Positions 7,124 to 47,415 of a DNA stretch of 64,000 nucleotides are shown here, piece by piece. This DNA is from Ashinkailepas kermadecensis (taxonomy: Eukaryota > Arthropoda > Thecostraca > Neolepadidae): contig JAOTOM010005141.1 in NCBI GenBank assembly GCA_034440615.1, positions 62,001 through 126,000 of the forward strand, given 5' to 3'. The first letter of the stretch is position 1; the number at the start of each line of letters is the position of its first letter. A program made the translations under genes and the position numbers. The notes under the pieces are model-generated. The model had not been told where the DNA came from, ran no database searches, and worked only from the letters and a program-made list of their open reading frames with translations.

Positions 7124-7241
7124 TCACAACACGTGGGTATGTGAGCGCGGCCGGTACAGGCGACAGCTGCTGGACCCGCCGCCCGACAGCACGCGGCACT
7201 CCAGTTCGGCTCTGGCCACCATCTTGTCGAATGTAGCCGAC
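7124..7241 (-). CDS. CCDC177: CCDC177-like, terminal exon 12
   Basis: The acceptor ggagcgatgacag is followed by 1 base, 38 codons and TGA (7126-7124). [20 protein letters not shown] begins with the TFDKMV.EA.L motif that closes CCDC177 proteins (SFDRMVREAQL), followed by a lineage-specific tail ending THVL. The acceptor and its flank are repeated 2-3 times upstream in 76-bp units (7236-7425). Confidence 0.85.
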
Positions 7242-10200
7242 CTGTCATCGCTCCTGTGGACCGCCAGGCGTCCGTCACACAACACACAGCCACGGGTGGT
7301 GCCCAGCCAAGCTGACCTGTCATCGCTCCTGTCGGACCGCCAGGCGTCCGTCACAGAACACGCGGCCACCAGTGGTGCCCAGCGCAACTGACCTGTCATC
7401 GCTCGTGTCGGACCGGAGTCGACAGGAGCGATGTCGACATGAGAGGCTGACGCACAACAGCTATGACAGAAAATGTCGAATTGGCAGTGCATGAAGTGGT
7501 GAAGAAGAGACTGGCAGGGCTTGCCTAACCTTCCGGCAATGCAGCCGGGGTTGTTGTCGGGCGCCACCTCACCTGATCTCCTGGCGGAGGTTGGCAGACA
7601 GGTGCGCCAGATGTCGTGATGATGCGACGGCCATCTGACGCTGCTCCATGAATCGTTCAACTCGAGCCTCGTCCATCTTTAGCTTGAAGCGCACCTCGTC
7701 AGCCATCTGGTCCTCCAGCCGATGTACCCTGTCAGGCCGGACAGGCACAGTCAGACTAAACGGCCCGACTGGCCGGACAGAGGGAGTGCGTCCCTCGAGC
7801 CGACACAGCAGCCTCCGGCCAATACATACTGGACAGCGTGGTCAGCCACCGGCCAATACATACTGAACAGCGAGAGCAGCCTCCGACCGATACATACTGA
7901 ACAGCGAGAGCAGCCTCCGACCGATACATACTGGACAGCCAGGGCAGCCTCCGACCGATACATAATGGACAGCCAGAGCAGCCTCCAGCCGATACATACT
8001 GGACAGTGATGGCAGCCTCCGACCGATACGTACTGGACAGCCCAGGGCAGTTCCGGAGTTCTATAGACCAGACAGACAAGAACAGTTTCGGAATGCTAAA
8101 GCACCGGACAGATAAGGAGTCCCGGAGCGGTAAGACAGGCCATAGGGCATTCTCCTGATCGGTAAGAACCAGTGAGACAGATTCACGAAGTGTCGCAGGT
8201 GTCTATAGCACTCCAGTCCAGTCCGGTGTGACCACCGCCGGCTGTGTCCGTTCCGCGTGACAGTGTGTCTCTGGGAGGTGAGTGGTGAGACTCACCACCG
8301 CCGGGTGTCCGTCCCGTGTGGGTGTCTCTGGGAGGTGAGACTCACCACCGCCGGGTGTCCGTCCCGTGTGGGTGTCTCTGGGAGGTGAGACTCACCACTG
8401 CCGGGTGTCCGTCCCGTGTGGGTGTCTCTGGGAGGTGAGACTCACCACCGTTGGGTGTCCGTCCCGTGTGGGTGTCTCTGGGAGGTGAAACTCACCACCG
8501 CCGGGTGTCCGTCCCGTGTGGGTGTCTCTGGGAGGTGAGACTCACCACCGCCGGGTGTCCGTCCCGTGTGGGTGTCTCTGGGAGGTGAGACTCACCACTG
8601 CCGGGTGTCCGTCCCGTGTGGGTGTCTCTGGGAGGTGAGACTCACCACCGTTGGGTGTCCGTCCCGTGTGGGTGTCTCTGGGAGGTGAAACTCACCACCG
8701 CCGGGTGTCCGTCCCGTGTGGGTGTCTCTGGGAGGTGAGACTCACCACCGCCGGGTGTCCGTCCCGTGTGGGTGTCTCTGGGAGGTGAGACTCACCACCG
8801 CCGGGTGTCCGTCCCGTGTGGGTGTCTCTGGGAGGTGAGACTCACCACCGCCGGGTGTCCGTCCCGTGTGGGTGTCTCTGGGAGGTGAGACTCACCACCG
8901 CCGGGTGTCCGTCCCGTGTGGGTGTCTGGGAGGTGAGACTCACCACCGCCGGGTGTCCGTCCCGTCTGGGTGTCTCTGGGAGGTGACAAACCACCGCCAT
9001 GCATCTGTCCCTGTGCGGTCTGTTTCCCTGGGAGGTGACTCATCGTTGCAAGGCGCGTGTGTCGGTAAAACTCACCGTCACAGGACGCGTCTGTGTCGGT
9101 AAGACTCACCGTCGCAGGGCGAGTCTGTGTCAGTAAGACTCACCGTCGCAGGGCGAGTCTGTGTCGGTAAGACTCACCGTCGCAGTGTGCGTCTGTGTCG
9201 CAGCTGGCGGTCCAGGTTGTCCTGACACAAGGTGCGGCGGCGACTGTCGGCTAGCTGCCTGGACAGCTGCTCGGCCCGCTCCTGGTCCTGCTGCAGCTGG
9301 TGAACTGCCTGTAGACTGTGGCCGGCGGAGGCGCTTTCCTGCAGCAGGCGGGCCGAGCGGACCTGCCGCTTGCGCTCCGTCTCCGCCACACTGGCGACAG
9401 GACAGCCGCATAACAGTCAGTCACACAGCGGCCACACGGCACACAGCAGCCACATGGCACACAGCAGCCACACTGCACACAGCAGCCACCTGGCACACAG
9501 CAACCACACGGCACACAGCAGCCACACGGCATACAGCAGCTACATGGCACACAGTAGCCACACGGCACACAGCAGCCACACGGCACACAACAGCCACCTG
9601 GCACACAAAAGCCACCTGGCACACAGCAGCCACATAGCATACAGCAGCCACACAGCACACAGCAGCCACCTGGCACACAGCAGCCACATGGCATACAGCA
9701 GCCACACGGCACACAGCAGCCACCTGGCATACAGCAGCCACACGGCACACAGCAGCCACCTAGCACACAGCAGCCACCTAGCACACAGCAGCCACCTGGC
9801 ATACAGCAGCCACATGGCATACAGCGGCTTCACTGCACACAGTAGCCAGTCAGCACACAACTACCAGACCGGCACACAACAACTACCAGACCGGCACACA
9901 ACAGGTACCAGACCGGCACACAACAGCTACCAGACCGGCAGACAACAGTCCGGCACACAGCAGTCGCCGTTACACAACAGTCAGCAGGCAACACGTCGTG
10001 AACTGGTAATAATGTGCCGCAAAATGGACACACGCTCGCCAAGGAGGTTCCCCATAACACACTCGGTCGCCAAGGTTTCCCATAACAAACATAACCTTTA
10101 AGTAGGGATGCACCCTGAAGCCCACATAGCTACCTTAAGCAGGGATTGCACCAAACAAGAGGCACTGTTCAACTCTAGGGGGCCGCGGTAGCTCAGTTGG

Positions 10201-46680: not shown

Positions 46681-47044
46681 TGGCCGAGGCACTGGTCTGC
46701 AGTGCCGGAGGTGACCAATCGCACGTGCACTGGCCGTCCGCGCCGGAGACTGGAGGTGAAGTTGGTGACGAGAGATGGAATCGGAAACGGAGACGAGCCT
46801 GAGACAGGGAATGGAGCAATCGGCCAAAGTAGGGACTGGCAGCTGGATGTGGAACAGGAGGCGAGAGATCGGTCTGTTGCTGTGCTGATGACGGAATTGA
46901 GATCTGGTGACAGTAGACGGAACCGGGGGCAGGAGAGAACATCAGTTGACTCAGGCCCCTCGTGAGCGTTAGCGACTTACAGACAAGTGCTTTCAACGGC
47001 TGTGATCTCCAGGACGTGTGTCGCTGTCATCTACGGTTGACACT

Positions 47045-47415
47045 GCAGGCTGATGTCGGTGACAGACATCCCAGGCCGGTGTGGGCGACATCCTGAGCCG
47101 ATGTGGGCGACATCCCAGGCCGGTGTGGGCGACATCCTGAGCCGGTGTGGGCGACATCCTGAGCCAGTGTGGGCGACATCCTGAGCCAGCGTGGGCGACA
47201 TCCCAGGCCGGTGTGGGCGACATCCTGAGCCAGTGTGGGCGACATCCTGAGCCAGCGTGGGCGACATCCCAGGCCGGTGTGGGCGACATCCCAGGCCGGT
47301 GTGGGCGACATCCCAGGCCGGTATGGGCGACATCCCAGGCCGGTGTGGGCGACATCCTGAGCCGGTGTGGGCGACATCCTGAGCCGGTGTGGGCGACATC
47401 CTGAGCCGGTGTGAT
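47045..47415. repeat. 22-bp minisatellite, about 16 copies
   Basis: The unit is gccggtgtgggcgacatcct ga, with cctgagc/cccaggc variants alternating in blocks. Confidence 0.95.

Follow-up and report, generated by a model that had tools for sequence, protein, structure and literature searches.

The minisatellite arrays that copy splice junctions in this barnacle genome are probably of the mirage type, formed by tandem duplication of stretches that span an exon-intron junction and tolerated since the exon-facing splice site is the one used. The analysis covered the window, i.e. the whole stretch of 64,000 nucleotides (positions 62001-126000 of contig C4644, in an assembly of 908 Mb), together with Ras-family exons elsewhere in the genome. 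The anatomy of the arrays, their direction from conserved exon into intron and their recurrence in the genome, across unrelated genes (the two window genes and the Ras-family exons), are direct observations.

Two gene models supplied the window junctions (Table 1); exons of the minus-strand gene are numbered X1-X13, Xn being exon n-1 of an earlier note on this DNA. This gene, which we take to be comparable to vertebrate CCDC177, shares 53% identity over residues 550-951 with the Amphibalanus protein, while the BLZF1 model shares 52% identity with the Amphibalanus amphitrite protein and 58% with a Pollicipes fragment, its sole match among solved structures being a 28-residue golgin-45 peptide. 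The data suggest that BLZF1 and the trichohyalin-like gene may be linked in Amphibalanus too (synteny). A Pfam scan of both gene models returned no families above cut-off. All 17 introns of the two genes are GT-AG and the phases are consistent throughout; furthermore, the Amphibalanus alignment is gap-free at the joins X7/X8, X8/X9, X9/X10, X10/X11, X11/X12 and X12/X13. Alignment of the Amphibalanus motif RSGDRSATFD places the X13 acceptor at 7253/7254, and thus about 19 conserved exon bases lie within the 76-bp unit. Exon X3 is missing from Amphibalanus protein P0015 and its 3' part is found in P0016; its 5' edge was set by phase and splice site only. Ab initio exon finding over 164 kb of the contig gave about as many candidates as the reversed sequence at score cut-offs of 15-30, 19 against 14 at a cut-off of 40 and 12 against 2 at 50; these candidates were too few for use.

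Tandem arrays are abundant throughout the region. TRF reported 101 rows for the window, merged to 55 arrays with a period of at least 6 that make up 25.8% of the window; arrays cover 29% of a 164-kb stretch including the window and, within the two genes, 32.6% of a total intron length of 24.2 kb. A junction was scored as repeated when the 24-base sequence across it recurs within 800 bases or, under a stricter rule, when a 16-base sequence recurs at 85%. By the first rule 7/34 window junctions are repeated, namely the acceptors of X3, X13, B2 and B4 and the donors of X4 (a single extra copy), X10 and X11; by the second, 5/34. The splice site occupies a constant point of the unit in nearly every copy, with about 15-50 exon bases per unit, and the listed copies sit on the intron side, acceptor copies upstream and donor copies downstream; the exceptions are an additional partial copy of the B4 junction 456 bp downstream, in the following intron, and a match at the threshold (24/40) within exon B2. 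At X13, X11 and B4, as in the Ras cases, the exon portion of the unit belongs to conserved coding sequence; at X10 and B2 it is not conserved.

Table 1. Gene models, tandem arrays and copied splice junctions, by window position for the two genes and by contig for the Ras-family exons
Feature	Position	Strand	Unit	Copies	Remarks
Minus-strand gene	7124..27698	-			13 exons, X1-X13 (27698 to 7124); coiled-coil-like protein; Amphibalanus 'trichohyalin-like'
BLZF1 (golgin-45)	36129..43816	+			exons B1-B6
X13 acceptor array	7235..7415	-	76 bp		acceptor and ~19 exon bases; exon X13 = 7124-7253; TRF
Array related to X11 donor unit	8284..8986	-	50 bp	14	further into intron
X11 donor array	9037..9200	-	34 bp		~23 exon bases and gtgagtcttac; TRF
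X10 donor array	10489..10655	-	20 bp		TRF
Array near X8 acceptor	12968..13523	-	46 bp		stops 9 nt short of exon X8 (12767-12958); without junction
Array near X7 acceptor	14180..14588	-	19 bp		ends 123 nt away; without junction
X4 donor and further copy	19909..20053	-		one further	copy 104 bp downstream; 32/40 identity
X3 acceptor array	23036..23280	-	53-64 bp		~20 exon bases; TRF; absent from earlier note
B2 acceptor array	36794..37124	+	61 bp		~15 exon bases; TRF
B4 acceptor array	41869..42102	+	96 bp		~49 exon bases coding LMVDEMVGWKAVFSRR; TRF
Array downstream of BLZF1	47075-47413		22 bp		no modelled exon touched
Ras acceptor, C4603			135 bp	15 counted in two registers, 14 printed	covers IWDTAGQ
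Ras acceptor, C686			72 bp	12	DTAGQE
Ras acceptor, C4527			67 bp	6	
Ras acceptor, C4113			67 bp	4	
Ras acceptors, C1829 (two exons)			33 bp; 42 bp	2; 9	
Ras acceptor, C4027			44 bp	3	
Ras acceptor, C3199			29 bp	2	
Ras donor, C4583			62 bp		sole Ras donor with real copy (1/44)

The earlier note had described seven arrays whose units carry a splice junction with flanking exon bases, a description that holds for five of them. The junction lies within the unit at the X13 acceptor (its exon 12), with copies at -75 and -151, at the X11 donor (its exon 10), where GTGAGT is retained in 3/3 listed copies, and at the B4 acceptor. It does so at the X10 donor (its exon 9) as well, although the site gtccgt is weak; GT is retained in 5/6 copies and the exon length nonetheless matches Amphibalanus gap-free. 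At the B2 acceptor the junction is again within the unit, but the exon edge falls in a poorly conserved stretch, and there may be a second acceptor, also in phase, 30 nt downstream. The other two arrays, ascribed to an acceptor-like site of exon 7 (X8) and to the acceptor region of exon 6 (X7), lie near their exons without containing the junction. The X3 acceptor array and the extra X4 donor copy had been overlooked. The range given in the earlier note extends to 47415, where the 22-bp array downstream of BLZF1 is situated. The 50-bp array beyond the X11 donor contains donor-like GGTGAG/GGTAAG at 14 places, and its unit aligns locally to the 34-bp unit with a score of 47 (500 shuffles: mean 17.8, maximum 36).

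Searching all six frames of the entire genome with the Ras family yielded 137 exon matches, from which 51 partial-exon rows were taken (full-length single-frame matches and some partial-exon rows being left out) and two (L045, an apparent processed pseudogene) were dropped, leaving 49 rows on 35 contigs. The 84 junctions (40 acceptors and 44 donors) were placed by a window-trained splice matrix; ahead of the repeat test, eight were reviewed manually against conserved Ras motifs, and seven of these moved. One hand-moved donor (C4566) ended one base off, one acceptor (C3199:138902) was left at its matrix position and is probably wrong, and 3/8 positive acceptors (C4603, C686 and C1829:40774) are among the hand-moved junctions. 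Copies in the upstream intron were found for 8/40 acceptors (2-15 copies), some units including the conserved DTAGQ codons; in C4603 four copies match at 40/40 and three at 39/40. Among donors 2/44 pass the 24-base rule, but C1030 lacks a copy at 40 bases, which brings the strict count to 1/44 and the strict total to 9/84. The interiors of the Ras exons are nearly repeat-free, with values of 0.01 and 0.00 at a depth of 41-60 nt.

The earlier note knew of no named system of this kind, yet such repeats correspond to the 'mirages' of amphioxus, described in the excerpted text of PMC3087553 and PMC3902484 as tandem repeats spanning exon-intron boundaries, in Adh3 and later in the globins BflGb6 and BflGb9, and cited there for troponin C and PGBD5 too; according to the same excerpts, splicing is reportedly undisturbed, and new introns have been suggested to arise from the repeats. 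As in mirages, the barnacle unit crosses a real exon-intron boundary and includes exon bases, the authentic boundary is the exon-facing copy while the others are intronic, many keeping AG or GT, and both exon ends are hit (4 acceptors and 3 donors in the window, 8 and 1 among Ras junctions). The original paper on amphioxus Adh appeared in Nucleic Acids Res 2002. Unit lengths overlap as well, those given in the excerpts for amphioxus being 10-72 and 150-160 bp and those of the barnacle 20-135 bp. Unlike the amphioxus cases, the present ones come from a barnacle, from a sample of 118 junctions in which acceptors outnumber donors; moreover, length polymorphism and RT-PCR are reported in the amphioxus excerpts, whereas the barnacle arrays are read from genome sequence. 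Since the structural features of mirages are present, the barnacle arrays may be filed as mirage-type structures.

Other known systems resemble the arrays less closely. In the splice-donor minisatellite of human IFI6 (Turri et al., 1995, as cited in PMC4526556 and PMC2572611), the repeat units carry a donor at the exon end, as at X10 and X11, but downstream units are there said to serve as donors, while the barnacle cases are mostly acceptors and are read from sequence. Tandem duplication including splice signals also underlies the Rogers model of intron gain over AG/GT sites (as cited in PMC3087553) and the intron gain in potato RdRp outlined in the available part of PMC4974935; unlike such AGGT duplications, the barnacle copies enlarge pre-existing introns. 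Repeats at human exon-intron boundaries are likewise mentioned in the excerpts of PMC2812944. Introner-like elements are dispersed near-identical introns at many loci, whereas the window and Ras units differ from gene to gene, except in the paralogues on C4527 and C4113, which speaks against such elements.

From this anatomy we infer a mechanism in which a tandem duplication would capture a stretch across the exon-intron junction, the exon-facing copy would remain the working splice site, and the remaining copies would become intronic decoys that multiply and diverge. Such copies would survive because the spliceosome keeps to the exon-facing site, ignoring the decoys and leaving the protein unchanged, so that they would be effectively neutral, while duplications internal to an exon would be purged by selection. 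With minisatellites forming at a generally high rate across the genome, many junctions would then be struck. Taking the exon-facing sites gives predicted proteins that align to those of Amphibalanus.

Three chance tests in the window give unlike answers, with no excess per base and a roughly threefold excess per array. Counted per base, the 7 repeated junctions stand against 9.6 expected by circular shift, and a per-base junction enrichment was rejected. Such an excess is absent because arrays occupy about one third of intron sequence: 38% of intron positions are repeated in the minus-strand gene and 17% in BLZF1, against 0.3-9% of exon-interior positions (24-base rule), and the junction rate falls between the exon and intron rates, which fits general duplication plus selection. 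Under random placement of arrays, an exon overlap of 8 bases or more, observed for 6/27 intronic arrays, is expected for 1.73 when 25 exon bases are allowed (P 0.004) and for 3.54 when 50 are allowed (P 0.11); those overlapping an exon or lying within 30 bases of one number 11 against 5.0 (P 0.0018) or 6.3 (P 0.013). Per duplication event, with units placed uniformly, 6 of the 27 intronic arrays span a junction against 2.0 expected (P 0.009). The piling up of array ends at exons has a simple reason, in that the arrays are dense and cannot reach far into exons.

Counted per array touching the 500 bases beside a junction, spanning arrays number 7/31 at Ras acceptors (2.00 expected, P 0.002), 3/25 at Ras donors (1.49, P 0.18), 4/19 at window acceptors (1.68, P 0.07) and 2/16 at window donors (1.20, P 0.34). 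The window and the Ras sample each gave an excess per array, unclear at donors; per base the window gave none. The suggestion in the earlier note of a process that duplicates splice-junction DNA is borne out insofar as the units derive from junctions, as supported by the conserved codons in several of them and by the Ras acceptors. A duplicating process specific to junctions is not shown, since junctions are repeated no more than introns per base, although there is the excess per array. The threefold per-array excess and the kept AG considered below are not fully covered by tolerated duplication and hint at something beyond neutral accident.

Junctions are probably duplicated more often at acceptors than at donors. 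By the 24-base rule the comparison is 8/40 against 2/44 in the Ras sample (P 0.042) and 12/57 against 5/61 with the window pooled (P 0.066). The strict rule gives 8/40 against 1/44 for Ras (P 0.012; 7/39 and P 0.023 with the paralogue pair counted once) and 12/57 against 4/61 for the pool (P 0.030; 11/56 and P 0.051 with the pair counted once). The window alone shows no acceptor bias (4/17 acceptors against 3/17 donors). On the intron side of Ras junctions, at 20-400 bases, repeats reach a density of 0.322 before acceptors compared with 0.156 after donors, a difference whose bootstrap interval runs from 0.025 to 0.306; over 40-200 bases, a rank test of the densities was not significant (P 0.18).

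Among the alternatives, selection may keep the copied acceptors, either as redundant, alternative or recursive acceptors or as intron-end elements that aid a 3' splice site devoid of a clear pyrimidine tract; we consider this unlikely, though it retains a real chance. The 17 window acceptors lack a clear pyrimidine tract, and AG is retained in 62/65 acceptor copies. Among copies the AG has a heterogeneity of 0.021, compared with 0.130 in columns up to 12 bases away (8 arrays, P 0.0074), and in a gapped alignment of 7 arrays with 41 copies (B2, with too few copies, and other arrays with fewer copies not being entered) it is 0, whereas other pairs of adjacent columns average 0.183 (P 0.0009). 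In addition, the paralogues on C4527 and C4113 have a common 67-bp array that is 88-95% alike while the remaining intron is unalignable by blastn. However, the copies were picked by similarity around the junction, which biases the AG test towards kept centres, and only 7-8 arrays were sufficiently deep. Moreover, donors are copied as well, and many decoys lie out of frame or lead into a stop: 4/8 Ras acceptor units are not multiples of three, and translation in the exon frame from the nearest acceptor upstream runs into a stop in 5/8 Ras arrays, in which regular use of the decoys would therefore be harmful. It is, in our estimate, distinctly unlikely that introns here are built from their own 3' ends, with about one fifth of acceptors carrying tandem copies of themselves and of the first exon codons and the AG of the copies being selected for a splicing role (redundant or stepwise acceptors, in a genome where acceptors have no clear pyrimidine tract).

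A mutational hotspot at exon edges, where stalled replication, R-loops or a nucleosome edge would initiate the duplications, appears quite improbable. The array-level excess at junctions favours it, as does the presence of an array within 35 bases of the acceptor in 10/17 window introns (3/17 for the donor; about 3 expected for each by permutation). Nevertheless, the per-base excess is lacking, and over 20 to 400 nt upstream of Ras acceptors repeat density stays roughly level, without a peak at the edge. R-loops, put forward in the earlier note, gain no support because the six junction arrays differ in the sign of their coding-strand GC skew (+0.17, -0.09, -0.31, +0.28, +0.24 and +0.21), and this explanation was rejected. 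Chance adjacency of dense arrays to exons, with meaningless matches between unit and junction, is highly improbable: the array share of intron bases, the per-base count of repeated junctions and the two merely adjacent cases of the earlier note agree with it, but the exon bases in each unit, the constant splice site and the event-level tests (window and Ras acceptors) oppose it, and the Ras cases, with up to 15 copies counted and their DTAGQ codons, largely refute it.

With mirage-type duplication as the preferred reading, a structure found in the excerpted amphioxus literature is now seen in unrelated arthropod genes. No report of barnacle minisatellite arrays of this kind was found in the open-licence PMC literature, most subscription papers lying outside that coverage; the frequency of the arrays, their lean towards acceptors and the kept AG may be new. 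Repeats that copy junctions into introns are rarely described, and the present ones provide many natural cases of competition between a genuine acceptor and similar copies located tens to hundreds of bases upstream of it. Such cases are a direct test of the spliceosome choosing the last copy among similar sites, and they offer a route of intron growth, and possibly of new exons or introns, that is traceable copy by copy.

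A 67-bp acceptor array, that is, an intronic tandem repeat whose unit holds the neighbouring exon's acceptor and exon bases, is common to two Ras-family paralogues lying elsewhere in the same genome (contigs C4527 and C4113, stretches L054 and L059, respectively), with 88-95% identity, whereas the remaining intron sequence of C4527 and C4113 gave no blastn alignment outside this array. Within the window, the acceptor region of BLZF1 exon B4 has a dispersed copy (table). The polypyrimidine tract is not clear at the acceptors of the 17 introns of both genes in the window, and between -15 and -4 there are several positions where G occurs as often as C or T.

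Features in the window and its flank
Feature	Position	Remark
Copy of B4 acceptor region (tctgatctgaccgcagcct)	42478-42549	next intron, 456 bp off, just upstream of exon B5
Reverse-transcriptase-like and zinc-knuckle-like reading frames	49525-53300	judged by eye
tRNA-like copies, five	3087-3162, 16362-16437, 40978-41054, 44764-44839, 47982-48042	
Long TATA-type microsatellites	12054-12283 and 31648-31894	window
Strongly GA-rich simple repeat	about 6514-6705 of stretch L013	flank, outside window

About 10 kb past the window, an exon of a bHLH-like gene, apparently similar to Ptf1a, lies on the minus strand of stretch L016 (about 132-527; window coordinate 74132-74527). Judged by eye, the reverse-transcriptase-like region is apparently a broken LINE-type element. 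Rfam finds all five tRNA-like copies, and a separate tRNA call assigns four to tRNA-Val CAC; as at least three have a common downstream tail on inspection by eye, the five copies probably represent a tRNA-derived SINE.
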